Shown: positions 5,264-32,130 of the stretch, piece after piece
Layout: the number at the start of each line of letters is the position of its first letter
How positions within the stretch are numbered: the stretch's first letter is position 1
Origin: Anabaena sp. PCC 7108
GTDB taxonomy: Bacteria; Cyanobacteriota; Cyanobacteriia; Cyanobacteriales; Nostocaceae
Direction of reading: 5' to 3'
Assembly: GCF_000332135.1 (NCBI RefSeq)
Contig: NZ_KB235896.1
Span: 2,367,403-2,431,402 of the forward strand
Length of the DNA stretch: 64,000 bases
Program-made: the position numbers and the translations under genes
The notes under the pieces: model-generated
Seen by the model: the letters and a program-made list of their open reading frames with translations, nothing else
Database searches by the model: none
Told to the model about the DNA's origin: nothing

Positions 5264-5265
5264 AG

Positions 5266-7658: not shown

Positions 7659-7691
7659 TTTAGGTGATTATCAATGGTATCTAAATTAATA

Positions 7692-7719
7692 AAGTCCTTA
7701 TACACGGACTTATTTTTTT
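7692..7719 (+). terminator. Rho-independent terminator after hetN
   Basis: AAGTCC (7692-7697) pairs with GGACTT (7706-7711) across an 8-nt loop and is followed by a run of seven T (7713-7719). It lies 34 bp after the hetN stop and closes the hgl-hetN unit. Confidence 0.7.
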
Positions 7720-8052
7720 GCTTATAATAAATCAGTATAATAACTTGCATTGCATAGCCATAGATGCGCTTTTTTCATAAACCCTAAATACAAGTACTGT
7801 ATTAAATAAGTCAATTCGCTGAAACTTTGTACTCCCATCTTTGGAATCAGAGTAAGTATCAACTATAATTAATTATCCTGATCAAAAGTATTAATTTACT
7901 GGTGCTTTCTGGCGATGCCCGTGGTATCCTTGTTGCCATCGTCTCCGGTAAGAAACAATTACATCTGGAGATAGAGCAGTTAGTAACATAGCAAACTGTA
8001 TGCTGTATTTACTATTGCAAAATGTACCTGATATAAAATTTTTTTATTAAAA
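7720..8052. other. Intergenic region upstream of the antiporter gene
   Basis: No open frame of conserved character was found. The stretch is AT-rich and presumably carries the promoter of the following antiporter gene; I could not assign -10/-35 elements with confidence. Confidence 0.4.
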
Positions 8053-10158
8053 ATGCCAGTAAATTTTCTCACAGAACCTCTCATTTCCTTTACAATTCTC
8101 CTCTTAGCTATTTTTCTTGTTCCGCCGCTATTTGAGAGATTAAAATTACCTGGATTGGTGGGTTTGCTACTAGCAGGTGTAATTCTCGGTCCTAATGGAC
8201 TCCATCTCCTCAACTCTAAATCAGAAACCATAAAACTGCTTTCAGATATCGGTAAAGTTTATTTGATGTTTGTAGCAGGTTTAGAGATTGATATTGAGCA
8301 GTTTCGCCAAACTAAAAATCGCTCAATGGGGTTTGGCTTTCTGACGTTTTTAGCACCTTTAATTGCTGGGATTATTACAGGACGTTTATTCAATTTTAGC
8401 TGGAATTCTTCTGTTCTGATTGGTTCTTTACTTGCTTCTCATACTCTTCTGGCATATCCAATTATTAGTCGTTTAGGAGTCATAGGCAATGAAGCAGTAA
8501 CTGTGACAATTGGGGCAACGATTTTTACTGATACAGGTGCTTTATTATTACTGGCAATTTGTGTGGGTATTCATGGAGGAGATTTCACAGCTTTTAAATT
8601 ATTCACTTTATTAGGTGGACTGGCAATTTATTCAGTTGTAATATTATTTGGGTTCAATCGGGTCGGAAAAGAGTTCTTCCGCCGTACTGGGGAGGAAGAA
8701 GGTAATCAATTTTTGTTTATCTTGCTGGCATTATTTTTGGCATCTGTAGGAGCGCAGGTGATTGGAGTAGAAAAAATTGTCGGTGCGTTCCTCGCAGGTT
8801 TAGCAGTCAACGGCGTTTTGGGAAATAGCCCAGTTAAAGAAAAAGTAGAGTTTGTTGGTAGTGTTCTTTTTATTCCTTGTTTCTTTGTAGACATGGGATT
8901 ATTAATTGATATACCTGCATTTATCAAAACTCTTAGTTCAATTGGTCTGACTGCGGCAATTGTAGTGGCGCTGATTAGCAGTAAATTTGTTGCGGCATTT
9001 CTAGCAAAAATATTTTATCGCTATAACAATTCAGAGATGCTGACAATGTGGTCATTATCGCTACCCCAGGTAGCAGCCACACTAGCAGCAACATTAGTTG
9101 CCTATCAATCCCTAAATCCTGCTGGTGAGAGACTAATCAGTGAGGATGTCTTAAACAGTGTCATTGTCTTGATGTTGGTTACTGCCATCATGGGTCCAAT
9201 AGTTACAGCCAGGGTGGCTAGGTTTTTACAAGTCACCCCAGCTGCGGACTGGAAAACAGACAGTCTATCGGTGTGGTGGGAATCTCAGGAGGCGGTGATT
9301 GAGCAACCAGAGAAAGCAGACAACCGTTTGCAGCAAGATTACCCGCCATTCATTGTCGTGGTTCCCATTTATAACCCGCTCACGCAACGCTATTTACTGG
9401 AAATGGCAGCACTGCTGGCGCGCCATGAATCTGGACAGATTATGCCTTTAGCCATTACTCAAGCCCATGTGAATATGGATGATCCGACATTAGTAACGGC
9501 ACTAGAAAAAAGTCAGGAAAGATTGAGGTTGGCTTTAAAAATCAGTCAAGAATTTGACGTACAAGCATCACCTACAATTCGGATTGATGATGATGTGGCT
9601 TTGGGGATTAGTCACGCTAGTCGGGAACACAATGCTAGTTTAGTGGTGATGGGTTGGGGAAATACCAGAAATTTCCGCGCTCGTTTATTCGGTAGTCTCA
9701 TTGATAAGGTTTTCTGGTCTTCTCACTGTCCGGTAGCAGTAACACGCCTGTTAAAAAGTCCTACAGAAATCAAGCGAATTCTTGTCCCCGTTGGTGACTT
9801 AACGAGGGCGACTATCGGTACTGTGAGGTTTGCCCAAATTTTAGCTGATGCCAATCAAGCTGAAGTTGTGCTTCTGCACATAAGCCAACGCCTCATACCT
9901 GCTCATCAGGTCACACATTTTACCTCTCAATTGTCTGATATTGCTAATCAAAGCAAGTTACAAGTAAATACAAATATCCTCACAATTGTTGGTGATGATA
10001 TTCCTAAAATCATTATTGAGCAATCTGAGGGATTTGACTTAGTGGTTTTGCGTTCTGTGCGCTATCGTACTGCTGGGGGATTAGCAGTTAGTGAAGTGAC
10101 AACTCAGGTAATTAATAACTTGAAATGTTCGATTGTGATGCTAGGACAGCCTCAATAA
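8053..10158 (+). CDS. CPA2-family cation:proton antiporter with two C-terminal Usp domains
   Basis: Residues 1 to about 395 form a 12-helix Na+/H+ exchanger domain, beginning with the typical GLLLAGVILGPNGL helix; the ion-site helix reads TDTGA. The cytoplasmic half carries two universal stress protein-like domains (about 430-560 and 570-700), with GWGNTRNFRARLFGSLIDKV resembling the nucleotide-loop G-x9-G segment in the first. Such proteins exchange Na+ or K+ for protons across the cytoplasmic membrane, with Usp domains probably sensing nucleotides. It lies between hetN and hetI, which are direct neighbours in Anabaena PCC 7120, so it looks like an insertion into that arrangement. Substrate ion cannot be read from sequence. 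Confidence 0.85.
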   Translation: MPVNFLTEPLISFTILLLAIFLVPPLFERLKLPGLVGLLLAGVILGPNGLHLLNSKSETIKLLSDIGKVYLMFVAGLEIDIEQFRQTKNRSMGFGFLTFLAPLIAGIITGRLFNFSWNSSVLIGSLLASHTLLAYPIISRLGVIGNEAVTVTIGATIFTDTGALLLLAICVGIHGGDFTAFKLFTLLGGLAIYSVVILFGFNRVGKEFFRRTGEEEGNQFLFILLALFLASVGAQVIGVEKIVGAFLAGLAVNGVLGNSPVKEKVEFVGSVLFIPCFFVDMGLLIDIPAFIKTLSSIGLTAAIVVALISSKFVAAFLAKIFYRYNNSEMLTMWSLSLPQVAATLAATLVAYQSLNPAGERLISEDVLNSVIVLMLVTAIMGPIVTARVARFLQVTPAADWKTDSLSVWWESQEAVIEQPEKADNRLQQDYPPFIVVVPIYNPLTQRYLLEMAALLARHESGQIMPLAITQAHVNMDDPTLVTALEKSQERLRLALKISQEFDVQASPTIRIDDDVALGISHASREHNASLVVMGWGNTRNFRARLFGSLIDKVFWSSHCPVAVTRLLKSPTEIKRILVPVGDLTRATIGTVRFAQILADANQAEVVLLHISQRLIPAHQVTHFTSQLSDIANQSKLQVNTNILTIVGDDIPKIIIEQSEGFDLVVLRSVRYRTAGGLAVSEVTTQVINNLKCSIVMLGQPQ

Positions 10159-10240
10159 TGCCCATAATTTCAGGTTTTATAACTCTTTAGGGACTTCCAA
10201 ATCAAAACAAAGGAGATAAGTAGGTGAACGGAAAAAAACC

Positions 10241-10270
10241 GTAGACGCGCAGCGGCTTCTCGAAGAGTAC
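10241..10270. repeat. Fragment of dispersed Nostocales repeat
   Basis: The stretch GTAGACGCGCAGCGGCTTCT and the bases after it match the common GTAGACGCG-CAGCGGC-TCTCG type of dispersed repeat seen in filamentous cyanobacteria. It lies in the convergent gap between the antiporter gene and hetI; no gene is visible in that gap. Confidence 0.4.
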
Positions 10271-10369
10271 TATGTAACGAAAAGTAAAATCTCCCAAAAC
10301 CTCTTCTCTGTTCCCTGTTAAGAGTTCCCTGTTCCCTTGTCATAACGACAATTTTTAACGCCAACCTAC

Positions 10370-11098
10370 TTAAATCATTTCCCAAGTACACAAATCCCCA
10401 ATAGTACCTGCAACTACAACAGCAGCAGCGAAATTATTTGCCGGTGCTAATTCTTTTAAACTCCAATTTCCTGATACAAGCAATTTTGCAGGTTCTGTAG
10501 GTGTCAAAAATATCTCAATTTGCTCTAACTGAACTAAACCATCACCGGTTGCTTTTAAATAAGCTTCTTTGCAAGTCCAGTAACGGAAAAATATCTGTTG
10601 CTGTTGATCTAAAGGTAGGGATTTAACTACTTCATATTCTTTGGGTAAAAAGAAGCGTTTGGCAAGATTTTCTAAATCTGACATAGAGCGAATATATTCT
10701 AAATCTACACCTATTGTCCGCGTATAACTTACCCCACACAGAGCTAAATTTTGAGAGTGAGACAAGTTAAAAAATAGCTTTCTTTCGGCAAATTTAGCTG
10801 CTAATAAAGGTTTTCCCCGTGGTTGATATTCAAATTCTACTTGTGAAGGCTCAATATTTAAATAACGACCTAAAATAGATCGTAAACTACTCCTTCCAGC
10901 AATGAAACGCTGACGATGTTCTGGAAAATAAAACCTTTCAGCACGAGCAATTTCATCACTAGAAAGGTTTTTCTGGAAAGATTGTATCTGTGATTCTGGC
11001 TGTTTTAAATCTATTTTCCAGATATGTACATGATCCGATGACAAAGTTAAATCTGTGGGTGCAGGTAGCCAGATATAATTAGAATCATTCACAAGCAA
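10370..11098 (-). CDS. hetI: HetI: Sfp-type 4'-phosphopantetheinyl transferase
   Basis: The 242-residue protein has the Sfp/HetI family motifs: PRGKP near 93-97, NLSHS at 111-115, GVDLE with Mg2+-binding Asp132 and Glu134, and WTCKEAYLK with Lys177 and Glu178. It transfers phosphopantetheine from CoA to the Ser of acyl carrier domains and is the broad-range activator in heterocystous cyanobacteria; likely clients here are Ser44 of HglB and the carrier protein at 19.6-20.0 kb. Orientation opposite to the hgl operon is as in Anabaena, but an antiporter gene stands between. Confidence 0.93.
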   Translation of the reverse strand: MLVNDSNYIWLPAPTDLTLSSDHVHIWKIDLKQPESQIQSFQKNLSSDEIARAERFYFPEHRQRFIAGRSSLRSILGRYLNIEPSQVEFEYQPRGKPLLAAKFAERKLFFNLSHSQNLALCGVSYTRTIGVDLEYIRSMSDLENLAKRFFLPKEYEVVKSLPLDQQQQIFFRYWTCKEAYLKATGDGLVQLEQIEIFLTPTEPAKLLVSGNWSLKELAPANNFAAAVVVAGTIGDLCTWEMI

Positions 11099-11162
11099 TT
11101 CAAAATTGAAGAAGAGACAGAGGGAAACTGAGAGGATGTTTTAAAAGTTTTTAATGTATAAA

Positions 11163-11250
11163 TAAACCCCTCTCCAAACCTCTCCCCGACGCGGGGAGAG
11201 GCTTTGAAACCCCCATTCCCTGGTAGGGAAGGGGGGCTGGGGGGTTAGGT
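11163..11250. repeat. Palindromic dispersed repeat upstream of hetI
   Basis: CCTCTCCCC (11179-11187) and GGGGAGAGG (11193-11201) form a perfect 9-bp stem; the rest is C- or G-rich and ends GGGGGGTTAGGTT. The reverse complement of this end, AACCTAACCCCCCA, occurs at 57184, and related G-rich sequence at 58730-58770. The layout is that of a non-coding MITE-like element. Confidence 0.6.
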
Positions 11251-11332
11251 TCTTGGAAATTATTGGTTTCATCTAATACTTTTCAAACAACCTCTGAGAC
11301 GTGGGGAAAGGTGATGCTGTTTTCTGGATAAA

Positions 11333-12418
11333 TTATCTGATCAGGGAAATTTTTTCAACTTGCTCAGTGCGCTTTGCTTCTATCCATTCTAAAATGCGAT
11401 TCCAAGCCCACCATTGGTCAGGATCTTGGGCTTGGTGCTGACATTTTTTGCTACTCACATAACCAACATGACCTCCATAAGATGTGAGTAATAAATCTAT
11501 GGCTGAATTTTTGGAACTGGCAACTTTTAAATCGGTAACAATGTCGGGATGAAATAATGGGTCATCAGCAGCATAAAGAATTAAGGTTGGTTTTGATAAC
11601 TGAGGTAATAGATTTAAAGCGCTGCTGGCTTCATAATAGTCTTCTACAGACGAAAAACCCAAACGTTCAATTACTAGTTCTTCGTCAAATCCCCAAATGC
11701 TGTTAGCTCGTTCAATTGCTTCTGCTTCTAAACTACCAGGGTGAGCAGCGTGTATTTTCCATGCCAGTTTTTTTAATTCCCTAGCAATGCGTGGTTCTAC
11801 GTATTTACCAAAAGGAGTTGTGACTAAATACGTGAGCGATCGCAATGAATCCAAACTTGGACAAATCACCGCCCCCCCAGCAATGTCACTCTCTTTAATT
11901 CCTAAATCCCCTGCTCTAGTCAAATCTACAGCCGCTTTCACCCCCCACAGCGCCAATTGTCCTCCTAAAGAATACCCTGTAAACCAAAACTTTTTTGGGC
12001 ATCCCATCGCCGCCGCTGCCGCCGCAATATGGACAAAATCTTCACCTTCATACAAACCATCGGAAGTTAAAGTTGGAGATAATTCTGCGGTTTTACCATG
12101 CGCTCGCCAATCAAATAAAACTACAGCGTATCCTTGCGCGTATGCTTTACGTCCCAACAGCCGCAAAAACCATTGTTGATTTAACTCTCCGGTAATGCCA
12201 TAAGTGCCAACAATTGTGCTATGGGCATTTTTGGGAATAGCAACCCATCCAAAAATTGGCACACCTTGCCCACCACTAAAGATGACTTGCTGATAAAGTG
12301 GCTCTGGATCTATAGTTGTACTTTGCCAATGACGGCTTCCCCACAAAGCAGTGTAGGCAGTCATGGCTACACCATTTTGCAGAAAATAAGGTGGATTGTA
12401 GGTAGAGTTACAAATCAT
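11333..12418 (-). CDS. YheT-family alpha/beta hydrolase
   Basis: The N-terminus NPPYFLQNGVAMT is typical of the YheT (UPF0017) family, so the ATG at 12418 is retained. The nucleophile elbow GYSLGG gives Ser150; the acid loop ADDPLF and the GGHVGY segment carry Asp and His of the triad. No signal peptide or membrane helix stands out, so it is expected in the cytoplasm. Family members are esterase-like with poorly known substrates. It is monocistronic and diverges from rpaA. Confidence 0.82.
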   Translation of the reverse strand: MICNSTYNPPYFLQNGVAMTAYTALWGSRHWQSTTIDPEPLYQQVIFSGGQGVPIFGWVAIPKNAHSTIVGTYGITGELNQQWFLRLLGRKAYAQGYAVVLFDWRAHGKTAELSPTLTSDGLYEGEDFVHIAAAAAAMGCPKKFWFTGYSLGGQLALWGVKAAVDLTRAGDLGIKESDIAGGAVICPSLDSLRSLTYLVTTPFGKYVEPRIARELKKLAWKIHAAHPGSLEAEAIERANSIWGFDEELVIERLGFSSVEDYYEASSALNLLPQLSKPTLILYAADDPLFHPDIVTDLKVASSKNSAIDLLLTSYGGHVGYVSSKKCQHQAQDPDQWWAWNRILEWIEAKRTEQVEKISLIR

Positions 12419-12573
12419 ATAAAAATTTCATCTAATTTGATCTTGATTTCTAGGTCTTTTAATCTTAATATTTATGTTAGATTTTAAATCTTTTTCATAA
12501 TTGTAATCACAATTTTTGTATATCTCAAAGGTTCTTAATTTATCCTTAAATAAGTAGTCATAATTTTTTAAGA

Positions 12574-13317
12574 ATGCCGAGGATTCTTGTCATAGACGAT
12601 GACCCAGCGATTTCAGAACTCGTTGCTGTCAACTTAGAAATGGCTGGCTACGATGTTAGTCAAGCTGAAGACGGCATTAAAGGTCAGGCACTGGCTCTCC
12701 AGCTGCAACCAGACTTGATCATGCTTGATCTCATGTTACCCAGAGTAGATGGATTTACCATTTGCCAACGCCTACGTCGGGATGACCGCACCGCTGAAAT
12801 TCCCGTCTTAATGCTGACGGCTTTGAGCCAAACTCAATATAAGGTTGAGGGTTTCAATGCGGGTGCAGATGACTACTTGACTAAGCCTTTTGAAGTTGAA
12901 GAAATGCTGGCACGAGTACGGGCTTTGTTGCGGCGTACTGACCGCATTCCCCAAGCTGCAAAGCATAGTGAAATTCTCAGCTATGGAACTCTTACCCTAG
13001 TTCCAGAAAGGTTTGAGGCTATCTGGTTTAATGAAACTGTGAAACTGACTCACTTGGAATTTGAGTTACTTCACTGCTTGCTTCAACGTCATGGCCAGAC
13101 GGTTTCTCCCAGTGAAATTTTGCGAGAAGTTTGGGGTTATGATCCTGACGATGATATCGAAACAATTCGGGTGCATATTCGCCACTTGAGGACTAAGCTC
13201 GAACCAGATCCTCGTCATCCCCACTATATCAAGACAGTATATGGTGCGGGATACTGTTTAGAGTTACCCAGTGTGCCTCCCTCTTCTGAGAGTACTGCCG
13301 CTACAGTAGTTGAGTAA
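12574..13317 (+). CDS. rpaA: RpaA: OmpR-family response regulator, circadian output and phycobilisome association
   Basis: Receiver domain (residues 1-120) with acidic pocket Asp8/9 and phospho-acceptor Asp52 in MLDLMLP, then an OmpR/PhoB winged-helix DNA-binding domain (about 135-235). The sequence is nearly that of cyanobacterial RpaA ([40 protein letters not shown]). RpaA is phosphorylated by SasA under control of the Kai clock and drives rhythmic transcription; it also affects energy transfer from phycobilisomes. The gene stands alone behind an AT-rich leader and ends in a strong hairpin. Confidence 0.93.
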
Positions 13318-13346
13318 ATTAGCGCTACATAGTGCTTTGATGTGAT

Positions 13347-13389
13347 AAATTGGCACTCTATTCTGAAGTAATTCAGGGAGTGCCAATTT
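13347..13389 (+). terminator. Strong inverted repeat after rpaA
   Basis: AAATTGGCACTC (13347-13358) is perfectly complementary to GAGTGCCAATTT (13378-13389), with a loop that itself can pair CTGAA with TTCAG. It lies 29 bp after the rpaA stop. The T-run is short, so it may protect the 3' end as much as terminate. Confidence 0.65.
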
Positions 13390-13546
13390 AATTAAGTAGT
13401 TGTGCAAAATAAATTGTACATTTAGGAGAGGGAACAGGGAACAGGGAACAGATAAGCACTATAGGGATTTTTATTTGTTCCGAAAATATTCAATTAATTT
13501 TGCTCAGGTACTTACAGTAGTAAGTTGAATACTTATCATTTAGACT

Positions 13547-13630
13547 GACGCGGAGACGCGGGGACGCGGGGAGACGCGGGGACGCGGGGACGGGGAGACA
13601 CGGGGACACGGAGACGCGGGGACGCGGAGA
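13547..13630. repeat. G-rich short tandem repeat (GACGCGGG type)
   Basis: About 84 bp are built from GACGCGGGG / GAGACGCGGGG / GACACGG units in tandem, in otherwise AT-rich sequence, in the convergent gap between rpaA and the HTTM gene. The rest of the 13318-13730 gap shows no gene, only a GGGAACAGGGAACAG duplication at about 13430-13449. Confidence 0.8.
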
Positions 13631-13730
13631 ATTTTTTTTGATAAGTGATTAGGCGGACATAATATCAATTAGTTCTTGACAGACTAGTAGGTTTTGCTGA
13701 AAAAGTTGGATGAAAGGGAACAGAAAGACT

Positions 13731-15536
13731 TTAAGAACAAGATTGTTGCCAAGTTTGTTTTTTCTCAACGGTTTGCTGTTCCCCAGGAGGAACTGTACGC
13801 TCATCCATAAAGTAAATATCTAAGTTTTTTAAATGTTGATTACCCGTGTGTTGAGTATTCCAATGACGACATAGATACTCACCATAAAAAGGATAAAGCT
13901 TTTTACCAATTGCTCGATTGAGATTAATAAAATAAGTGCGCCATTGCATATTATGGTAAATAGCACTTCTCACACCCAGACTAGGTTTATCCCAATTTAC
14001 AGGATTCCCATTTCTAAAAATATCAACTTCGCTGCCATCTTCAAGTCGTCCAGGAATTATATGCCAACCATCATCTCTGGGAGGACTTGGGGCAAAAATA
14101 CTCCATGATTGATCAAGACGTGTAACCCTACCAATAAATGCAGTTTGTTCCCAAATTTTTCGTTTGAATGAATCGGGAGAATAACTACTAAAGTTCCAAA
14201 TTAAAGTGTAGATTAGTAAGACCACAGCTAGAATATTCAAAAAGCGTGATTTACGAACTTCTAGAGGACGAAATTTCAAAGGTTTAGTAAAATTGCCAGC
14301 GAATTTGCGGTTAGTTGCGATCGCTTCATAAAATTTTGTTCCTCCTGCCATGACTGGTTTCCAACTCAAAAATGGTACTAGAAACCTAAATATTGGCGAA
14401 AGACTAACTACATAAATAATTCCTTTAAATTTGAAGTATCGGTTGCCTTGATAATCTTCAATTACCCAGGAATTATGGGTTTGCATATCCGCACAAATAT
14501 CTGGATATTCCTGTGCCATTAATAACGGAGTTCCTGGTAAAATCAACAAAGTCCGTAATATATGTACAACTTTTTTACAGAAACCACAATCAGCATCAAA
14601 GTAAATAGTTAAACCTTGACGTGCTGGATTTTGGATGCGCTTTTCCAGTACATTCCAAAAAGAACTGGGGAGGAATGCTAACCAACTAAAAATACTCAAA
14701 AATGGGAAAATACCGATATTCAAAGTTAAGGCAAATCCGGCATGAAGTCCAATAAAAGTGATAATGGCACACATCCGTAAAAGGTCGTTACGGAAAGGAA
14801 TAAATATCACCAAAGGACCAATCCATTCCAACACCAAAGTAATTTGTGTAAATACTTTTAAAATAGGTTGAAAATTTAGGAGAAAATGACCAAAAGGAGT
14901 GACGTATTGATCAAAACTCAAAGCATAATAAACGGCACTTCCATCAATCCAGACTGGGCTTTTCGTCTTAAATGCGGCTGAGAAAATATAGATAAAGCAC
15001 TGTTGACACATCAAGGCCAAAGTAGCACCAGAAAACACTCGTTCTGGTAACTGACGATGAGAAGTGTTGAACGCACTATCCAGCGAATAGCAAGCTCCCC
15101 AAGGCAGGAACATAGCCCAAAACATGAGAGCGCGAAGGACATCATCTGCGGCAAAAATCAGGGCTGGATTGCGATTGTGGAGAGAAATCAGCAATACCCA
15201 AGAAGCGATAGTTGCCACTCTAGTGCGATAACCCACTAACATGAGAATTGCGAAGAATGCTGCGATCGCAAATAATAGTATCTGAAAAATTGGTTCTCCA
15301 CTAATCGTATGTAAAGACCAATATCCAGATTTGGCAATTTCAGCCAATATAGACCGAGGAAGCACCCCTAAATCAGAATAGTGGGCGGTGAGATCCCCAA
15401 AACGTGTGCATAAATCAGTGAGAATAATTAAAGATATGCCAATTCTGAAAGCTGCAAGCGATCGCAAATCTAATCCTAAGACAGTTTCTAGATTTTTTCC
15501 CAAAAAAGTTTTTGATGTTTGTTTGTGAATAGTCAT
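13731..15536 (-). CDS. HTTM-domain membrane protein fused to a DCC/DUF393 thiol domain
   Basis: The first ~290 residues contain several hydrophobic helices and match the HTTM (horizontally transferred transmembrane, vitamin K-dependent carboxylase-like) type. A DCC/DUF393 domain follows: YFDADCGFCKK with Asp314, Cys317 and Cys320 in a thioredoxin-like CxxC arrangement. After another hydrophobic segment near 410-430 a ~170-residue soluble tail includes FAPSPPRDDGWHIIPG. Redox work on quinone or thiols at the membrane is an inference from family relations; no substrate is known to me. The downstream neighbour on the other side (120 bp upstream) encodes an NDH-2-like flavoprotein, which suggests a shared redox context. 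Confidence 0.75.
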   Translation of the reverse strand: MTIHKQTSKTFLGKNLETVLGLDLRSLAAFRIGISLIILTDLCTRFGDLTAHYSDLGVLPRSILAEIAKSGYWSLHTISGEPIFQILLFAIAAFFAILMLVGYRTRVATIASWVLLISLHNRNPALIFAADDVLRALMFWAMFLPWGACYSLDSAFNTSHRQLPERVFSGATLALMCQQCFIYIFSAAFKTKSPVWIDGSAVYYALSFDQYVTPFGHFLLNFQPILKVFTQITLVLEWIGPLVIFIPFRNDLLRMCAIITFIGLHAGFALTLNIGIFPFLSIFSWLAFLPSSFWNVLEKRIQNPARQGLTIYFDADCGFCKKVVHILRTLLILPGTPLLMAQEYPDICADMQTHNSWVIEDYQGNRYFKFKGIIYVVSLSPIFRFLVPFLSWKPVMAGGTKFYEAIATNRKFAGNFTKPLKFRPLEVRKSRFLNILAVVLLIYTLIWNFSSYSPDSFKRKIWEQTAFIGRVTRLDQSWSIFAPSPPRDDGWHIIPGRLEDGSEVDIFRNGNPVNWDKPSLGVRSAIYHNMQWRTYFINLNRAIGKKLYPFYGEYLCRHWNTQHTGNQHLKNLDIYFMDERTVPPGEQQTVEKKQTWQQSCS

Positions 15537-15656: not shown

Positions 15657-16904
15657 TTATCGTTGCAGTAGCTTTTTCATCCCTCTAACTATCCATCTTT
15701 TAGCTACCTCAAGTTTATGTTTGAGAGTTGGTAAACGTTGAATATAAACTCCTGTGCGAATAATTCCCGCTAGATTACCATGTAGGGTAATACCAAAGCT
15801 ATAAACTACAGCATTCTTAATACCCAGGGTTAGCATTTCTCCTAAGTGCAAATAACTAAATGACTTTAATTTACGTCCTGTAATTTTTGCCCAAATATTA
15901 CGAGCAGCACGGGGGGCTTGCTGAAAAGCAGCTTGGGCTGTAGCGGGAGATTCGTTACCTTTAATATCTCTAATTTCTGCTAAATCTCCTAAGACAAATA
16001 CATGAGGATATCCGGTTAGTTGTAAGGTTGGTTTAGCAATCAATTGTCCTTGTTGATTATGTTGACAATTTAGCTCTTTTATCCATTGAATTGATTGATT
16101 TCCTCCTGTCCATAATACTAAATCTGTTTCTATATGGCGCGTTTTATCTTGGGAGTTAATGATAATTTTATTAAAGTTAATAGCTTCAATATTAGTATTT
16201 AAATTTATCTGTACACCACGTTTTAGTAAAGCTCTGTATGATACAGTACGACTACTTTGAGAGAAAGTTTTTAGAATTTCATTACCTCTATCAATTAAGT
16301 GAATTTCTCCTCTTTTTTTTAATCTGTCTGCTAACTTACAGGCTATTTCTACGCCATTTGGACCAGCACCTGCTATAGCTATGCGAATCACAGGAATATC
16401 TGAAGCTTCTAAAAAAAGTAACCGTTTCTTTAAACATTCAGCATCGGCTAAAGTGCGAAAAGTTTGGGCGTATTCTAATGCTCCTGGAACTACATCTAAC
16501 CGCGTTTCTTTACCAACAGATAACACTAAATAATCGTAATTTACGATTTCTCCGTTCTGTAAATTTACCAATTTTTGTTCTAAATCAACTCCTTGAATTT
16601 CCGCTTGATAAAATTTGGCACTACTACCTGCTAACAACTTTTTATAAGCTGGTGCAACTTCCCAATCATGTAACTCTCCAGTCACCACTTCATAGAGTAA
16701 AGGAGTAAATACAAAATGGTCACGTTGTTCCACCAGCGTAATTTCATATTTGTATGGACATTTAGCAAACTTTCCCAATTGTAAAGCCGTATAAAGCCCA
16801 CCAAAACCACCACCCAAAATACAAATCCGCAGCGGTTTATAATTACTAACAGATGGTTTTTCAAACTGACCTTGCTGATGAAATTTATCGTCTATTTGAT
16901 ACAT
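15657..16904 (-). CDS. Type II NADH dehydrogenase-like FAD oxidoreductase
   Basis: The 415-residue protein has an N-terminal FAD-binding ILGGGFGGLYTALQL, the second dinucleotide fold IAGAGPNGVEIACKL and the C-terminal FAD motif HVFVLGDLAEI, the order of NDH-2/ferric-type quinone reductases. Such enzymes pass electrons from NAD(P)H to membrane quinone without proton pumping. The C-terminal ~50 residues are basic and amphipathic, compatible with peripheral membrane attachment. It precedes the HTTM-DCC gene on the same strand. Cyanobacteria have several paralogues, so I give no symbol. Confidence 0.82.
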   Translation of the reverse strand: MYQIDDKFHQQGQFEKPSVSNYKPLRICILGGGFGGLYTALQLGKFAKCPYKYEITLVEQRDHFVFTPLLYEVVTGELHDWEVAPAYKKLLAGSSAKFYQAEIQGVDLEQKLVNLQNGEIVNYDYLVLSVGKETRLDVVPGALEYAQTFRTLADAECLKKRLLFLEASDIPVIRIAIAGAGPNGVEIACKLADRLKKRGEIHLIDRGNEILKTFSQSSRTVSYRALLKRGVQINLNTNIEAINFNKIIINSQDKTRHIETDLVLWTGGNQSIQWIKELNCQHNQQGQLIAKPTLQLTGYPHVFVLGDLAEIRDIKGNESPATAQAAFQQAPRAARNIWAKITGRKLKSFSYLHLGEMLTLGIKNAVVYSFGITLHGNLAGIIRTGVYIQRLPTLKHKLEVAKRWIVRGMKKLLQR

Positions 16905-17101
16905 AGCTTAATAATTATTAATTAATACAATATGGCGTTTCCTAGTCTCACGAAGTACAAAATCATCTGCGTTTATCTGCGTTCATCTGTGTTCTATTCT
17001 TACCGCTTGTACCTCACTTGAATGGGAATTGCTATATTTTTCTAATACTGCACTTTCGCTTTTCTCTCTGTGTCTGAAGCTTGAGCCAAAAAATTTGTAA
17101 T

Positions 17102-18034
17102 TCAATTACGAATGATATTGACTGCTTTCAACTGCTCAACCAGTTCAGTAGTACGGATACGGCGACCGCTGGGATTAAGATGATAGTGAGTATCAGCAAA
17201 CAGACTAGAATCTGTTTTCACATTTAAGGTATTTTTGTCATAAAGTACCGGGGCAATTTTACTTAACTCCTCTGCTGTCTTGCGGATATTACCTAGAGTT
17301 TTCGAGTCAGTGCTGCCATAAATCCAGGAAAGTCCTAATACTAAAGTTGCACCCTTAGATTCAACTTCCTGTTTAAATTGCTGAATGCGCTTGAGAGAGT
17401 GGGGAGAAACACTATCATTAATCGTCAATGACCACCATTTGCTCTTAGTCCGCTGCTTCATTACGGTTGGATCACCGTTAGCTGTAATGGGATCTGAATA
17501 ATAGCCAGTTAGATGACCTTTTTCCACAACATCAAAAGATGATTTTGTCAATGCTTTGAGAGTGGGTAAACCTAACGACATCAGGTCTTGAGCTAGTTGT
17601 TTAGCGGGTATATTCCCTAATCCGGGTTTACCGATAGCCGCACCAAACTGACCAGAGCGATCGCCAAAACCGTCATCATCTAAAAGCAGTAGATACTCTG
17701 GAATCAGCACCACAATATCGCCTTTTTTAATCACATCAGAGACGCTGGCCAAAATTACATCTAAGCCCACAGGACCATCGGTGGCCATGTTGAGAGTAGG
17801 AATACCCACATCCTTTTGCATCAGTCCTGCATCTACGGTGTAGTGCGCTCCAGAACCTCCAACAATGAGAATGCGTTGGGGGGCTTGGACTTCCTTAGCT
17901 AACGCCATTTTCTGCTCATACATGATCCGCAGCCAGCTAAGTTCACCACCATAACGGGCATTGTAGAAATAGCCTACACCCCAAGTTAAACCTGCGATCG
18001 CTAACCAACTAGAGAGTCTCAAAAATTTATTCAT
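17102..18034 (-). CDS. SGNH/DltD-like protein, last gene of the FAAL-MBOAT operon
   Basis: The 310-residue protein starts with a membrane anchor (LAIAGLTWGVGYFY) and has an exported-looking domain. GGSGAHY gives a candidate nucleophile Ser61; LNMATDGP could form the second block; near the C-terminus Asp281 and His285 (DTHYHLNPSGR) match the Asp/His block of SGNH hydrolases and of DltD/AlgJ-type partners of MBOAT proteins. It starts only 3 bp after the MBOAT stop. By analogy with DltD it would complete transfer of an acyl group to an extracytoplasmic acceptor; the acceptor is unknown. Confidence 0.72.
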   Translation of the reverse strand: MNKFLRLSSWLAIAGLTWGVGYFYNARYGGELSWLRIMYEQKMALAKEVQAPQRILIVGGSGAHYTVDAGLMQKDVGIPTLNMATDGPVGLDVILASVSDVIKKGDIVVLIPEYLLLLDDDGFGDRSGQFGAAIGKPGLGNIPAKQLAQDLMSLGLPTLKALTKSSFDVVEKGHLTGYYSDPITANGDPTVMKQRTKSKWWSLTINDSVSPHSLKRIQQFKQEVESKGATLVLGLSWIYGSTDSKTLGNIRKTAEELSKIAPVLYDKNTLNVKTDSSLFADTHYHLNPSGRRIRTTELVEQLKAVNIIRN

Positions 18035-18037
18035 TAG

Positions 18038-19501
18038 CTAAAACTCAAAGTAGATGAACGGAGAAGGTGCAGTAGCAGCTAACAAGATAGTCAGAGCAAA
18101 TAGTATCCGCGACATCCACGGAGAAAGTAATATATCGTATTCACACTCCCGTTGTTGCCAAACGCCAATTTGTTCCATCAACAAAACTCCCATTGCCAGT
18201 AACAAAGCTAATGCCAGAGTTCCCCCCCCATTGGCATTCAAAAATGTGAAAGCCTCACCCAAATTGCTCAGAGAATAATTCCAGGGAGTAACGATAACTT
18301 TCAACTTTTCTAGCAACCGATAAGTATTGGTTTCCATGAAAAACAAACATCCCAGAATCACCGAGCCAAAGGTTAAAGCCCAGGAAATAAACTGAGGCAT
18401 GAGGAACTTTTGCTGAGATAGTAATTTATAAAAAGGTCGTCCGGCATAGCGTATTACTAATAGCAGTAGTCCGTGGTAAGCTCCCCAAATAATGAAGTTC
18501 CAAGCCGCTCCATGCCAAAAGCCAGATAGGGTAAATGTAATAAATAAATAAAATGGAGCCCACTTCATATTTCTACCCATTAGCGGTAGAAAAACATAAT
18601 CCCGAAACCAAGTGCTGAGAGTAACGTGCCACCTGCGCCAAAACTCGTTAATACTTTGGGAAGTATAAGGAGCAAGGAAATTAATGGTTAAGTTAATACC
18701 TAGAAATTTGGCTAAACCCAAGGCAATAAAACTATATCCACCAAAATCAAAGTAAATTTGCAGGGTAAATAAAAATGCAAAAAACCAGACTAACCAGGGA
18801 TTATCAACTTGAGCTACTTTGATGTAGGGTGAAATATTGTCAGCCAAGACAAACTTCATAAATAACCCCAAGGAAAGCCAGCGAAAACCAGCTTCAAAAT
18901 TATCAAATGTGAATTTAAAAGTGAAATTTTCAATCTGGGGAAAGAAATCAGCCCGACGTTCAATCGGACCTGCTACTACTTGGGGAAAAAATGACGCAAA
19001 GTTGACGTAATCTAATGCACTAATCGGTTGTTTCTTTTTACTGGTGTAAGAGTCAACGACAAACGCCACCATTTGGAAAGTGTAAAAGGATAATCCTGGT
19101 GGAATTGAACCTAATCCAGGAATATTCCGCGACTGCCAAGTTTCTGATAATCCTGGTATTAATAACCCTAAAACGTCCTCTATAAAGAAGTTCAGATATT
19201 TGAAATAGGCCAGGATAGCAATATCTATCACTACTACAACCGTAGCTATTGCCTTGGCTTTCCATCCTGTTTGTCGCAACATCAACCACACCATGATGTA
19301 GTTAAAGATGATTTCACAGATGAAAATGGCAAAGCTAGATTTAGAGGCGTTAAGAAACAAGAACAACGACATTGCTGCCAAACCAAAGGCATCAAAAGCA
19401 CCTTTCCAGAGGTTTAAAGACTTAGCAATATAGCGAACTGTGAAGTAAGGAATGCTGAATAGTATTAGCACCCACCAGAAGGAAAACTCTGAAAAATTCA
19501 A
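18038..19501 (-). CDS. MBOAT-family membrane O-acyltransferase (AlgI/DltB-like)
   Basis: A 487-residue polytopic membrane protein with the MBOAT signatures FFPQVVAGPIER (172-182), NEFWRRWH (His292), SGFWHG with the expected catalytic His330, and a second His343 (AYHG). The start is TTG at 19501, supported by GGAGG ten bases upstream. AlgI and DltB members move acyl groups from a cytoplasmic donor to an extracytoplasmic glycan or to a partner protein. Its partner here is probably the SGNH protein 3 bp downstream, and its donor the acyl-ACP encoded upstream. Confidence 0.88.
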   Translation of the reverse strand: MNFSEFSFWWVLILFSIPYFTVRYIAKSLNLWKGAFDAFGLAAMSLFLFLNASKSSFAIFICEIIFNYIMVWLMLRQTGWKAKAIATVVVVIDIAILAYFKYLNFFIEDVLGLLIPGLSETWQSRNIPGLGSIPPGLSFYTFQMVAFVVDSYTSKKKQPISALDYVNFASFFPQVVAGPIERRADFFPQIENFTFKFTFDNFEAGFRWLSLGLFMKFVLADNISPYIKVAQVDNPWLVWFFAFLFTLQIYFDFGGYSFIALGLAKFLGINLTINFLAPYTSQSINEFWRRWHVTLSTWFRDYVFLPLMGRNMKWAPFYLFITFTLSGFWHGAAWNFIIWGAYHGLLLLVIRYAGRPFYKLLSQQKFLMPQFISWALTFGSVILGCLFFMETNTYRLLEKLKVIVTPWNYSLSNLGEAFTFLNANGGGTLALALLLAMGVLLMEQIGVWQQRECEYDILLSPWMSRILFALTILLAATAPSPFIYFEF

Positions 19502-19598
19502 TTCACCCTGCCTCCGGTCTGTGAAATGCCTAAAATTTAGAGTAATGGGAATGGGTAATTAATAATTACTTCCTATTCCCTGTCACCTATTCTCTTCA

Positions 19599-19991
19599 TC
19601 AGCTACCACTAATTTTGTTCCAAAGACCTCCCCAGCCTTTGCCTTGGGAAACTTCTTCTTTAGGTTTGCTAACAGATGCTACTGGCTGGGAAGCCATGGC
19701 TTCAGAAGGCAATACACTCAGTTCGCTAACCAAGTAATTAGCTGCTTTTTCAATGGTGGGATAGTCCCAAAGTAAGGTGGAAGGAAGTTCTGCATCTAGC
19801 CAATCTTCCATATCACCAACGATGGTTACTGAGTCGATAGAGTCTAGACCATAGCGAGTCAAAGGTTCAGTAACTTTGATGGTTTGAGCATTAATTCCCA
19901 ATTGTTTGGCAATTTGGTTAATCAACCACCCTTGGATGGTATCAACAGCAGTAGTGGTACTAAGATTGGAGTTGGAGTGTTGAAGTTGCAT
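19599..19991 (-). CDS. Stand-alone acyl carrier protein with C-terminal tail
   Basis: I take ATG at 19991 as start because AGAGG lies nine bases before it; this gives 130 residues overlapping the end of the acyl dehydrogenase gene by 32 bp. The carrier domain (about 15-95) has phosphopantetheine Ser51 in YGLDSIDSV and the WDYPTIEKAANYL helix usual for carriers that work with FAAL enzymes. A Ser/Pro/Lys-rich tail of ~35 residues ending GKGWGGLWNKISGS follows. It should accept a fatty acid from the ligase encoded two genes upstream after activation by a HetI-type transferase. Confidence 0.87.
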   Translation of the reverse strand: MQLQHSNSNLSTTTAVDTIQGWLINQIAKQLGINAQTIKVTEPLTRYGLDSIDSVTIVGDMEDWLDAELPSTLLWDYPTIEKAANYLVSELSVLPSEAMASQPVASVSKPKEEVSQGKGWGGLWNKISGS

Positions 19992-21768
19992 TATTATTAG
20001 CCTCTTGTTGTTGAGATTTTGCAAGTTGGAAAGGAACGATGGAAAACATCCGGTCTTCGCTATACAGTCGGATCAATTCTTGGGTGATTGCCCCGTCGTC
20101 GATCCTTCTAGGTAATGCTTTCCCAGGACGAAATGTCAGCATTAGCTTACGCAAGCTAAGTGCTAACCAGTCCCCGCTGGCAAAGAAGTCTCCCAGATGG
20201 TTGCGGTTATGAAGCCACGTATGCACACAAGCAGCCGCTACGTGCATGACGCAGTATTGTTTCGCCATATCGAATAATTCTGGCGATTGCTCATGGCCAA
20301 ACTGGAAGTTGGAAGCTGTAACCTGCTGATCAAAAGCATTTAGCTCCTCCTGTACCATTTCTGTGAAGGTGATGATTTGGTACAGAATATCTGGGTCAAG
20401 GTTAGAGTCAGACTTCAAGTCTTGCAGAGATGTTAATGCCAGGTCTAACCCTTGCAGGACATCATCTCCACCTCGATTTACCAGTTCCAGTTTTTTGCCA
20501 TCAAATGCTGGTAAAGGCTGGGTTTGATCAAAAGTGATTGCCAGCCGTTTTTGTAGTGCTTCTGGATTGCGTCCAGCGTTTTTGGTGCGCGATTTAGCTA
20601 ACTGACGCAATTGCAATAGCAGAGCATGAAGATTTACGACGGTGCTGCCATCAAACATACTGATAATGGCGTTATCTCGTAAAACTTTTTGGAAAATTCC
20701 CCATTCGTGAGCTTCACGCATATAAAAACGTGAGCCGAGAACTACGGAAACGTTCTGCACCACTGTTTCCAAAGTTGTGGTGACAAAGTATTTGACGACT
20801 GCGGACCAAACACTGATTTGCTCTGGAATGGAGTTAAATCCACGGGCTACTCCAATGGTGGCACAGTCACAAATTAAAATATCTAGAAACGCATCGGTGA
20901 GAGTGCGTTTGGGTTGGGGCATATCGAAAACTGTTTTGCCATACAATTTGCGGTCTAGGGCAAATTTGAGGGTGGTACGCAATGCTGTATCTGCGGCACC
21001 TTGAGAAAAGGCTGCACATAGCGCCCTGGTAATTTGAAAGCCTTTCAGTGCTAGTTCTAATCCTAGTCCTTCTGCTCCCAACCGCATTGATTCGGGAATA
21101 AAACAGTTATCAAAGCGAATACCACTCATATCCGAACCCCGTACCCCATGAGTCAGGATTTTGGGGAGGTGGCTATAGTTAGCTGGGTCAATTTTGCTCT
21201 TTTCTACCATGAATAAGGAAAGGCTACGCGCCCCACCTGCTTCATCAGTTCTGGCTAATACGAAAGATACTCCAGAGATAGTGGCACGATTAATTGGCCA
21301 TTTTTCCCCATTCATGATGTAGCCACCAGGAACTTTCGTGGCTTGCATATCACCAGCTAATAAATCGCTACCATGTGCTTTTTCCGAATAAGCTAGGCAC
21401 ATAGCACCGTCGGCATCTTTCATGAAGCTGGAAAGAGTCTGTTTTTGTTCCTCTGTCCCTGCCATCCATGTTAAATATGACCAAAACATGGTAGTGAATG
21501 CGATCGCTGCGGTTTGATCTCGCCGAGATAAGACCCGCACAAAAGATATAAATTCATCAAAGGTTGTGAATTCGCCCCCGCACTCTGTGGGGATGTAATA
21601 GTGTTGGAGTTTCCAGTTATAGAGCCATTGGATAATTTCGTGGGGAAATTCTTCTTTTTCATCCAGGTCTATAACCTGTTTGAATGACATCATACTGTCT
21701 GGATTGCCAGGATGACCTAAATCCTGTTCTAGTCTTTGGGCAACCCAATATTGCTTTAATGGCTGCAT
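19960..21768 (-). CDS. Acyl-CoA/ACP dehydrogenase family protein
   Basis: The 602-residue protein has the acyl-CoA dehydrogenase fold: helical N-terminal domain (1-125), beta domain with CLAYSEKAHGSDL and GYIMNGEKWPI, flavin-contact region around FDRKLYG-like LDRKLYGKTVF, and a C-terminal helical domain. It is longer than classical enzymes (~380-400) by a C-terminal extension of about 200 residues. At the usual catalytic Glu position (YEGT) it has Asp373 (MFDGST). Placed between a fatty acyl-AMP ligase and an ACP, it most likely introduces a double bond into the ACP-bound acyl chain. The ACP gene start overlaps its 3' end. Confidence 0.83.
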   Translation of the reverse strand: MQPLKQYWVAQRLEQDLGHPGNPDSMMSFKQVIDLDEKEEFPHEIIQWLYNWKLQHYYIPTECGGEFTTFDEFISFVRVLSRRDQTAAIAFTTMFWSYLTWMAGTEEQKQTLSSFMKDADGAMCLAYSEKAHGSDLLAGDMQATKVPGGYIMNGEKWPINRATISGVSFVLARTDEAGGARSLSLFMVEKSKIDPANYSHLPKILTHGVRGSDMSGIRFDNCFIPESMRLGAEGLGLELALKGFQITRALCAAFSQGAADTALRTTLKFALDRKLYGKTVFDMPQPKRTLTDAFLDILICDCATIGVARGFNSIPEQISVWSAVVKYFVTTTLETVVQNVSVVLGSRFYMREAHEWGIFQKVLRDNAIISMFDGSTVVNLHALLLQLRQLAKSRTKNAGRNPEALQKRLAITFDQTQPLPAFDGKKLELVNRGGDDVLQGLDLALTSLQDLKSDSNLDPDILYQIITFTEMVQEELNAFDQQVTASNFQFGHEQSPELFDMAKQYCVMHVAAACVHTWLHNRNHLGDFFASGDWLALSLRKLMLTFRPGKALPRRIDDGAITQELIRLYSEDRMFSIVPFQLAKSQQQEANNNATSTLQLQS

Positions 21769-21778
21769 AGTGTTTTCT

Positions 21779-23584
21779 TTAGGAGGTAATTTGCACTTGA
21801 TCTAGCAAGGAATCGATTTCATCTGATAATTTACGGAAGTTGGCGTTAAATTTAGGGTTTTCACTCCAGTTAGCTAATACTCCTAATTCACCTGCGAGGA
21901 AACTGGCTTTACAAGCCCGGCGCTGAATTTTGCCACTAGAGGTTTTGAGGACATTACCCGGCTTGGCGAGAACAACCGCGTAGACTTGAAGTTCATGAAT
22001 TTCGGCGATCGCTTGCTGAATGCTGCTAATTACCTCTTCTGGGTTAAAATCTTCGGGATTGCGTTTGACTTCCTGCACTATTACCAGTCGCTCAACTGCA
22101 TCTACATCTATGGAGAAGGCTGCACCATAGTCGGGACGGAGGCAAGGATGAAGTTGCTGCACTGTCCACTCTAGGTCTTGAGGATAGTGGTTAGTACCCC
22201 GGATAATAATCAGGTCTTTAATCCGTCCAGTGATAAATAATTCACCATTTTTCATAAAACCCAGATCGCCTGTCCGTAGAAATGGTCCCTCCTTGTTATC
22301 GGCTGTATAAGCACGGAAGGTACTTTCACTTTCTTCGGGGCGATGCCAATAACCGTCTGCTACACTGGGGTCAGATACCCAAACTTCTCCGACTTCATCA
22401 AGTTGGCAACTGGTGAGTGTGTCGGGGTTAACAATTGCTACTTTGGTATCACAAACTAATTGACCACATCCAGGAATAGCCCGTACTCCTTCTCCCCAAG
22501 CTGTGGCTTCAACAATTTTGTTTCTTTCAATTTCTGATGTTTTGACTAGGCAGAGTACAGGCGGTTTTTCTCTGGGACTTGTTGATACTAAAAGTGTGTT
22601 TTCTGCTAATCCATAAGCGGGGGCGAAGGTTTCCCAACGGAATCCACAAGGAGCAAATTTTTCAAAGAACTCTTCTAACACCCTGGGATTGATTGGTTCT
22701 GCCGCATTACCTGCCGCTACCCAACTGCTGAGATTGAGGCTATCCAGTTGCACGTCGGTGACACGCCCAACACATTGCTCATAGGCAAAGTTGGGAGCTT
22801 GACTGTGTGTACCCCGATAGCGCGAAATGGCATTAAGCCAACGAAATGGTTGTTTGATAAAAGCTAGAGGGGACATTACGTAGCAAGGATGACCGTTGTA
22901 CAGTGGCACAGTTAATCCTTCTACTAGCCCGTAATCATGGAAGTAAGGCATCCAAGTGATGGAAACACTTTGTGCATCATAGCCACAGGCTTTTTGTAAA
23001 TAGCCGCAATGGTGCATGATGTTGTGATGATTGATCATCACTCCTTTGGGAGTGGAAGTAGACCCAGATGTGTATTGCAGATATGCCAGGGTCTCTGGGC
23101 TAACTTGAGGATCTTGCCACTGGTCTGCCAGTTCTAAGTCAATGTCTTCAGTGACTATCCAATTTATTTGCTGAAATTCGGGAAAATCTAATTCTGCTTC
23201 TTGTAAAATACTTAAAAACCGCTTAGTGGTTAGGGCAAAGGCAGCATTTGCATCTTTGACGATTGCCCGTAACCGAGGCAATGCTCGCTTTAGTCTTCCT
23301 GCATCGGGTGGTGGTACTGGTATCGCTATCACACCGCCATAAAGACTACCCAAAAAAGCTGCTATGACATCCAGTCCTTGAGGATAAAGCAATAATGCCC
23401 GCTCGCCTTTGCCATTGTGTTGCTGTAAAAGTGCGCCTATGGCACGGGCTTGACGGTCAAGTTCTCCGTAGGTTAACTTGGCTCCTTCTGTTTTTCCATC
23501 AATGAGAAACATATAAGCGAGCTTGTCCATCTCATGGGTAGCACGCCAGCGTAGTAGTTCGACCAAGGTAGAGATGTTTGTCAT
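21779..23584 (-). CDS. Fatty acyl-AMP ligase (FAAL)
   Basis: The adenylate-forming enzyme (601 residues from ATG 23584; a TTG two codons earlier is also open) has the P-loop TSGSTSTPKGV, the FAAL-typical WMPYFHDYGLVEG, AYGLAENTL, the FAAL insertion region, RTGDLGF and the GTNHYPQDLE and SSGKIQRR ends. FAALs activate free fatty acids as adenylates and load them on ACP rather than CoA. It is the first gene of a five-gene minus-strand operon (10 bp to the dehydrogenase). A 630-bp gap separates it from chlP and should carry the promoter. Confidence 0.9.
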   Translation of the reverse strand: MTNISTLVELLRWRATHEMDKLAYMFLIDGKTEGAKLTYGELDRQARAIGALLQQHNGKGERALLLYPQGLDVIAAFLGSLYGGVIAIPVPPPDAGRLKRALPRLRAIVKDANAAFALTTKRFLSILQEAELDFPEFQQINWIVTEDIDLELADQWQDPQVSPETLAYLQYTSGSTSTPKGVMINHHNIMHHCGYLQKACGYDAQSVSITWMPYFHDYGLVEGLTVPLYNGHPCYVMSPLAFIKQPFRWLNAISRYRGTHSQAPNFAYEQCVGRVTDVQLDSLNLSSWVAAGNAAEPINPRVLEEFFEKFAPCGFRWETFAPAYGLAENTLLVSTSPREKPPVLCLVKTSEIERNKIVEATAWGEGVRAIPGCGQLVCDTKVAIVNPDTLTSCQLDEVGEVWVSDPSVADGYWHRPEESESTFRAYTADNKEGPFLRTGDLGFMKNGELFITGRIKDLIIIRGTNHYPQDLEWTVQQLHPCLRPDYGAAFSIDVDAVERLVIVQEVKRNPEDFNPEEVISSIQQAIAEIHELQVYAVVLAKPGNVLKTSSGKIQRRACKASFLAGELGVLANWSENPKFNANFRKLSDEIDSLLDQVQITS

Positions 23585-24215
23585 TAGCAAAATTTGGGTA
23601 GCGAGGCATTAAGTCATTTCACGACTCCGCAAAAACTGGGAGGATATGAAATTTATGAACCCTTACAACATAGCTCCTGTGTATGGAGTAATACTGTATA
23701 GTTATAGTTATGTGTTTAATAAATTCGGCTCTGCGTCAATTATACTCAATACTGACATATAAAACCCCCTTACTGGAGTATTTTCTCGGTGTTTTCACTA
23801 AAAAAATAAATTTAACCTCCTCTAGTAATTTCCTATTTCAGTGTATGTCTGTGGCATAAGTATTGTTTTGAAAGGATTTATCATAATTTTGACGATGTAG
23901 AGATGAGAGACTATGATAAATTTTTCATGAAAATTATTTTATAGGTGATAAATTCCTACCTTTGTATGGTAAGTGAATTTTTGGGAACCTACCTATTTTG
24001 GTTATAGTAGCTAAAATACCCACCCTCGCTTGCGAAGATGGGTAATATTATAAAGTGCTGTTAGCTTTGTTCTGTACGAGATGCTAAGTTCTACTTTTCG
24101 GAAAAGGCTACGTAAACAGAGCTTTTACCCCTTGCTGAGTATAAACCTATCTGCTTCAAGGTTTTGAGCAATCAACGGATAAGCTTTATCTCGATCTTGC
24201 TGTCTTGAACTAAGG
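23585..24215. other. Intergenic region upstream of the FAAL operon
   Basis: No convincing gene. The AT-rich part next to 23590-23960 should hold the operon promoter (not identified). A stem-loop at 24017-24044 is annotated separately. Confidence 0.4.
24017..24044 (-). terminator. Hairpin downstream of chlP
   Basis: TACCCA (24017-24022) pairs with TGGGTA (24039-24044), and TCGC/GCGA pair inside. On the minus strand it is followed by TATTTTAG, a weak T-tract, about 170 bp after the chlP stop. Confidence 0.4.
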
Positions 24216-31730: not shown

Positions 31731-32130
31731 GCTGATTTGTTCCTGGTTCTGTTCTCCGTCAAGTTTTTGCCACAATTAACAATGTGTATTCGACTGTCTG
31801 CTGCTAATCAAGAAAAGCAGTTTCTTGCTTTACGGGGAGTCTAATGACTTTACCCACCACAAGCATCCATTGTCTGTCCCACAACGGGTAAGGGCTTTTT
31901 TTAAAGAAGTTTACACTTACACCTTTGTTTATCCTAGCGCAGAAGAGCTAGGTTCACACATATGAACTTCCAGATAGGATATTATATCACATATCAAAAA
32001 GTTTTTCAGTAGTTGGCGGTGGTAGCCTCATCAGTTTAGCAAAAGACACTCGCAAAATTATCCGTTGCTACCTAAACAGGCGGCAACGGATAGAATCTTT
32101 AGATTGCTTTACAAATCTGGTAATAGAAAT
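31731..32130. other. Leader region between psbT and rpsA
   Basis: No gene seen; an nrdR gene, found here in some cyanobacteria, would not fit. The region contains CCTAGC/GCTAGG (31933-31938 and 31947-31952) and TTCA/TGAA stem-loops and a TTACCC/GGGTAA long-range pairing around 31853-31890, possibly structure in the rpsA leader. Confidence 0.35.

Follow-up and report, generated by a model that had tools for sequence, protein, structure and literature searches.

A co-inherited cyanobacterial gene set with a predicted role in fatty acid activation and trans-membrane acyl transfer

Introduction

In the Dlt pathway (DltA, DltC, DltB, DltX, and DltD), a ligase and a carrier feed an MBOAT protein that works with an SGNH partner, and the group donor of DltB is a carrier protein. 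The characterised MBOAT-SGNH systems known to us move small groups (acetyl, D-alanyl). According to the available part of a published account, the acyl group in both Dlt and PatAB moves to the Tyr of an FXYXXF motif and from there to the SGNH protein; MBOAT-SGNH pathways besides Dlt reportedly use acyl-CoA without a carrier protein, the acyl donor of PatA being acetyl-CoA (PMC12148441). Here we describe a set of seven genes of Anabaena sp. PCC 7108, lying in a stretch of 64,000 nucleotides (contig NZ_KB235896.1, positions 2,367,403 to 2,431,402) that was analysed as a whole and is called the window below. We hold with moderate confidence that this set encodes a co-inherited pathway of acyl activation and trans-membrane acyl transfer to an extracytoplasmic acceptor.

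The set resembles the Dlt pathway in that a ligase and a carrier would feed a DltB-like MBOAT protein and an SGNH partner, with an FXYXXF motif. It differs in having a fatty acyl-AMP ligase (FAAL) in place of DltA, an added dehydrogenase, and extra genes of quinone type; moreover, the shuttle motif is on the MBOAT protein itself, and the SGNH protein is not recognised as DltD. With the PatA-PatB type it shares the C-terminal FXYXXF of the MBOAT protein and a separate SGNH protein, but PatA is described as fed by acetyl-CoA and free of a carrier in the available part of PMC12148441, whereas here a FAAL and an acyl carrier protein (ACP) are co-inherited. The FAAL-ACP cassettes of lipopeptide and polyketide pathways also combine a FAAL with a carrier protein; unlike these, the seven genes include no non-ribosomal peptide synthetase or polyketide synthase, and a trans-membrane acyltransferase is found instead. 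No published description of such a gene set was found in the literature covered, which mostly excluded subscription papers, and no mention of MBOAT was found in the available part of a FAAL review (PMC11837247).

Results

Five intact open reading frames (ORFs), all on the minus strand between 17102 and 23584, encode in this order a FAAL (21779..23584), presumed to load the carrier; a long acyl-CoA dehydrogenase-family protein of 602 aa (ACAD; 19960..21768), presumed to be an acyl-ACP dehydrogenase; an ACP (19599..19991); a DltB-like MBOAT acyltransferase with a TTG start (18038..19501); and an SGNH acyltransferase-like protein that has a long helix at its N-terminus (17102..18034). The gaps are 10 bp, −32 bp (an overlap), 97 bp, and 3 bp. 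For FAAL the ORF tool gives a TTG start at 23590, the adopted end being 23584, and for ACP it gives TTG at 20024, the start being read as ATG at 19991. Pfam cut-offs were exceeded by FAAL (PF00501 and PF23024), ACAD (three ACAD domains), ACP (PF00550), and MBOAT (PF03062, 93.9 bits vs. a cut-off of 27), and an SGNH fold was seen in the predicted model of the fifth protein. The initial annotation had described these five genes as a Dlt-like unit of adenylating ligase, carrier, MBOAT, and SGNH protein, and its coordinates, gaps, families, order, and Dlt-like logic are borne out; it missed two genes downstream. The conserved block exceeds five genes, and to it also belong, on the same strand, a gene for an NDH-2-like NADH:quinone oxidoreductase (NDH; 15657..16904; PF07992), a dedicated extra copy, and a gene labelled HTTM for a GGCX-fold (HTTM-type) membrane protein of 601 aa with an inserted DCC1-like thiol-oxidoreductase domain (13731..15536). 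The SGNH-NDH and NDH-HTTM gaps are 197 and 120 bp.

The MBOAT protein had only two solved relatives at E ≤ 0.001, both of DltB type (best E 7.5e-26). Its sole NCBIfam match was the DltB equivalog TIGR04091, which scored 179.5 bits, under its cut-off of 375. The C-terminus is closed by FXYXXF in 20/20 intact proteins of the system; the window version, FIYFEF with Tyr484, is encoded at 18041..18058 (minus strand). In the SGNH protein, Ser61 (codon 17852..17854, minus strand), Asp281, and His283 are invariant in 21/21 aligned rows. This protein matched nothing in Pfam or NCBIfam, DltD models included, and a PDB sequence search with its alignment returned nothing; its relatives came from fold comparison alone.

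For FAAL, the best solved matches over the full length were 7r7e, 3kxw, FadD32, and FadD23, the first two of which we take to be FAAL structures. Both an AMP-binding domain and a DIP2-like C-terminal domain are present, and the closest solved chains are FAALs. The NCBIfam models named for FAAL or fatty acyl-AMP ligase scored 314–424 bits, under their cut-offs of 600–1100; scores against the DltA D-alanine ligase models were 92.7 and 86.3 bits vs. cut-offs of 476 and 560, so that the ligase is not identified as DltA. Ser51 of the ACP lies in YGLDSID, and 17 of 20 rows show GW or AW in the tail of this protein. Taken together, the FAAL, the ACP, and the DltB-like MBOAT protein ending in FXYXXF suggest that the system is fed by a carrier and has its shuttle on the MBOAT protein, mixing Dlt and PatA traits. 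The best reading of these sequences is that a FAAL-loaded group would travel from ACP to the MBOAT Tyr and then to the SGNH Ser.

Distribution of the set was examined in a first draw of 386 cyanobacterial genomes, searched with one query at a time, and in a second draw of 177 Nostocaceae genomes, searched with the ACAD and GGCX-fold queries; genomes are cited below by G numbers and loci by L numbers. Orthologs of ACAD, SGNH, MBOAT, and GGCX-fold proteins were found in the same 18 of the 386 genomes, which belong to 12 genera; the set is intact in 17 and decayed in one (G383). Full-length ACAD orthologs (at least 58% identity) are present in the 17 genomes, with fragments in G383 and a 46% relative in G229, and the same 17 genomes, again with fragments in G383, hold the orthologs of SGNH (at least 49%), MBOAT (at least 63%), and the GGCX-fold protein (at least 51%). 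The FAAL search covered just 37 genomes (the 18 carriers, G229, and 18 others): identity was at least 60% in the intact carriers, 68% for a fragment in G383, and at most 51% elsewhere. ACAD matches of any kind occurred in 71 genomes, the remainder being dehydrogenase-family proteins at 19–31% except for a short 47% piece in G318. Set aside were MBOAT proteins at 36–43% (G027, G358, and an additional copy in G074; the search was cut at E 1e-60), SGNH matches that were weak and partial (G326, G358, and G157), and HTTM-type matches, with best pieces of 22–45% in 12 more genomes and second copies at 41–42% in G143 and G105. In the Nostocaceae draw, ACAD and GGCX-fold orthologs again coincided, in 18 of 177 genomes, 12 of them new and six shared with the first draw. 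G507 of this draw has only ACADs at 44–48%, and G419, of the same genus as the window, has neither protein.

Common presence is combined with extensive dispersal of the genes. Of the 17 first-draw genomes with an intact set, six have all seven genes in one block (G000, G074, G191, G231, G326, and G060), and the order FAAL-ACAD-ACP-MBOAT-SGNH-NDH-HTTM is that of five Nostocaceae, the Anabaena genome included, and of G060, which belongs to the same class and another order. In the other 11 the set is split over two to four loci and differently paired, several of these assemblies being drafts. The arrangement is ACAD-ACP / MBOAT-SGNH-NDH / FAAL / HTTM in the seven genomes of genus g34 (mapped fully for G310; for the six others the map is based on shorter loci), ACAD-ACP-MBOAT-NDH / SGNH-HTTM / FAAL in G143 and G105, FAAL-ACAD-ACP-MBOAT-SGNH / NDH-HTTM in G131, and FAAL-ACAD-ACP-MBOAT / SGNH-NDH / HTTM in G111. 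Members thus re-pair by lineage, as MBOAT-NDH, SGNH-HTTM, NDH-HTTM, MBOAT-SGNH-NDH, and SGNH-NDH. Among 11 more Nostocaceae blocks, five have all seven genes and six have FAAL-ACAD-ACP-MBOAT-SGNH-HTTM without NDH. In G383, the FAAL, ACAD, MBOAT, SGNH, NDH, and HTTM genes are all broken into pieces, and an ACP gene was not found there; in G425, the ACAD and GGCX-fold genes are broken. The set is decaying in these two genomes, G383 (L062/L165) and G425, which are of one genus. The possible remnant in L162 (G215; 10953–13392) is an NDH-2-like gene beside a shortened GGCX-fold gene; ACAD, SGNH, MBOAT, and FAAL orthologs were not found in that genome.

The nearest solved chains of the NDH protein are of NDH-2 type, followed by FSP1. 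It shares with these quinone reductases the sequence family and AQxAxQ, which we take to be the quinone motif of NDH-2 and which is present in 20 of 21 rows labelled as system copies, one of them from G215, which lacks the acyl genes. Unlike NDH-2 and FSP1, it is an extra copy besides a conserved housekeeping paralog, presumably NdbB. In a 42-row tree the system copies are separated from the housekeeping copies that these genomes also have; two label changes were counted, one change was found in 42% of bootstrap trees, and a single origin is compatible with the tree. The extra copy adjoins some member of the set in all 17 intact first-draw carriers.

The predicted model of the 601-aa membrane protein has the overall fold of the vitamin K-dependent gamma-carboxylase GGCX. 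It differs from GGCX and from HTTM-domain proteins in its DCC1-like insert and in sequence, identity to GGCX being 14–16% over an alignment that reaches only to about GGCX residue 490. PF05090 (HTTM) was detected in 3 of 22 aligned proteins, the window protein not among them, and a search of its genome with PF05090 gave nothing; the SdpB model matched 15 of the 22, the window protein scoring below cut-off. PDB sequence searches with the alignment and with one homolog gave nothing, and only fold comparison found a match. Lys190 (codon 14967..14969, minus strand; Lys in 20/22 rows) is a candidate counterpart of GGCX Lys218 or Lys217: judged by plain spacing to the Trp, most rows point to Lys217, and Lys218 agrees only where a row has a one-residue gap. 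At the putative position of GGCX His160 (Glu pocket Asn159/His160), the tentative alignment places Asp. For the CxxC of the DCC1-like insert (Cys317-Cys320; 14577..14588, minus strand), 17 of 22 rows have both Cys. A role of this domain in disulfide maturation of the SGNH protein is disfavoured, because Cys is absent from all six SGNH proteins counted.

The dN/dS values of the seven genes were 0.05–0.23 against two relatives, those of the second comparison being rough because dS there exceeded 1.2. Upstream, between chlP and the block, lies a terminator-like hairpin (24017..24044, minus strand) with a 12-pair stem and a T-rich tail; within the block, the hairpin scan showed no such site on the minus strand in any intergenic gap. 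This evidence is weak, since the scan gave 13 sites vs. 8.9 in shuffles. Neither an Rfam search nor a PADLOC search, the latter on five of the proteins, gave a match.

Several neighbouring genes were observed in more than one lineage. FkbM-type methyltransferases, 47% alike, stand beside MBOAT in L152 (G310; 9127–10098) and directly after SGNH in L059 (G131; 13739–14716); an eighth function of this type is possible, and it was left out as a part. Also left out was an LRAT-domain gene several kb from the GGCX-fold gene in L153 (G310; 5969–6658) and L160 (G111; 17043–17726), regions that have a HisA-type gene in common as well. In L160 (9384–16228) the GGCX-fold ortholog is accompanied by a second MBOAT (36%), a sub-threshold DUF1574 protein, and a family 2 glycosyltransferase. 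A HetI-type phosphopantetheinyl transferase gene lies near the set or NDH-HTTM in three lineages (window 10370–11098; L049 13008–13805; L162 10029–10787), represented by the window, G060, and G215; it was not counted as a part because it is absent from the G074 and G191 regions. G237 holds a second full SGNH copy (L161) adjoining genes that include a DegT-type aminotransferase, and relatives of these flank SGNH-HTTM in L155 (G143). Elsewhere in the window (30594–31775), a ribosomal S1-like protein, as judged from sequence, carries, close to the C-terminus, a long VEAVEA repeat.

Discussion

In the pathway that we propose, FAAL would adenylate a fatty acid and load it onto the stand-alone ACP, and the ACAD-family enzyme would oxidise the ACP-bound chain, probably by 2,3-desaturation. 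The DltB-like MBOAT protein would then, at the cytoplasmic face, take over the acyl group from the carrier on Tyr484 in its C-terminal FIYFEF, and Ser61 of the SGNH protein would accept it and pass it to an extracytoplasmic acceptor. Genes, motifs, predicted folds, and co-inheritance were observed; each catalytic step, the order of steps, substrate, acceptor, and topology are what we infer from them. A functional partner would be the GGCX-fold protein, in most cases together with the NDH-2-like enzyme. The simplest role for the two would be as quinol-using (GGCX-fold) and quinol-making (NDH) enzymes acting on the same acyl group or acceptor, and a quinol-dependent step in the pathway is plausible.

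A vitamin K-type cycle within a lipid pathway is a more specific idea, which we regard as rather unlikely. NDH would make a quinol, phylloquinol or another, which the GGCX-fold enzyme would use together with oxygen, in the manner of the clotting-factor carboxylase, to take a proton from the acyl chain activated and unsaturated by FAAL, ACP, and ACAD and to alter this chain, for instance by carboxylation or isomerisation, before or after MBOAT-SGNH transfer; the double bond introduced by ACAD would acidify the chain enough for such chemistry. Cyanobacteria make phylloquinone, and NdbB reduces its precursor, according to the available part of PMC7133116.

A number of observations weigh against a single pathway of this kind. 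Asp373 of ACAD, invariant in 20 rows, sits where a catalytic Glu is usual (Glu in the best solved match), and a profile search of the genome for electron-transfer flavoprotein (ETF; PF01012) gave no match, with a control positive in 10 of 14 genomes. The NDH copy of G131 is a long branch with the variant motif AQATYQ. Of the 16 intact carriers in the Nostocaceae draw, six lack NDH in the block, to which this count refers, and the other six genes are therefore taken as the core. No gene for an acceptor or a substrate accompanies the set throughout the lineages: among ORFs of at least 80 aa, with overlaps removed, from 26 regions compared across lineages, 43 pairs matched outside the labelled query families and none was recurrent in all. 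Identities between genomes are correlated across the families (r 0.89–0.98, 13 genomes), and common descent alone explains much of this. Co-inheritance does not prove a single reaction chain. The neighbourhood check that the initial annotation had named as a possible refutation came out divided: the genes are co-inherited (the same 18 of 386 genomes, and for FAAL the same 18 of 37), but in the seven g34 genomes ACAD-ACP does not neighbour MBOAT and is unlinked from MBOAT-SGNH.

This last separation would fit two acyl donors, with FAAL-ACAD-ACP supplying an unsaturated acyl-ACP to another enzyme, MBOAT-SGNH using a different donor such as acyl-CoA, and both halves contributing to one product by way of different acyl chains. 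PatA, a similar MBOAT protein, takes acetyl-CoA (PMC12148441, available part), and in L061 (G229; 4101–14110) a FAAL-FAAL-ACAD-ACP relative (ACAD 46% identical to that of the window) precedes not MBOAT but an aminotransferase I/II-family gene and an SDR gene. The FAAL-ACAD-ACP cassette thus seems portable, and the G229 copy perhaps feeds a sphingoid-base-like pathway. Co-occurrence of the genes is complete, however, and in 10 of the 17 first-draw genomes with an intact set the ACP and MBOAT genes adjoin (G000, G074, G191, G231, G326, G060, G131, G111, G143, and G105), so that we give the two-donor arrangement a low probability.

The lack of an ETF match bears on another alternative, in which NDH and the GGCX-fold protein would be the redox partners of ACAD, passing its electrons to the quinone pool as a substitute for ETF, without chemistry of their own on the product. 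Both proteins are of quinone type by their relatives, and the GGCX-fold protein has a CxxC domain. On the other hand, the electron source of NDH-2 enzymes is NAD(P)H rather than acyl dehydrogenases, and the NDH gene is missing from the six Nostocaceae blocks mentioned above; we consider such a role doubtful.

A heterocyst envelope component as the product, as raised in the initial annotation, is very improbable. HetR (HetR_C) was detected in six of the 17 intact carriers, the Anabaena genome included; the idea is unsupported because the other 11 gave no HetR match, which contradicts it as the general function. That the genes are functionally unrelated chance neighbours, as the wide SGNH-NDH and NDH-HTTM gaps of the window might suggest, is contradicted by their common presence pattern in 386 genomes despite dispersal and by joint decay in G383 and of ACAD and GGCX-fold genes in G425, and is hardly credible.

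If the proposed acyl-transfer pathway is true, its carrier-fed design, which includes a FAAL and a dehydrogenase, would extend the MBOAT-SGNH machinery to fatty acids. The vitamin K enzyme GGCX activates human clotting factors. With this gene set a bacterial protein of the GGCX fold gains a firm genetic context, which bears on the role of the family outside animals and on whether quinol-driven chemistry serves lipids besides proteins.

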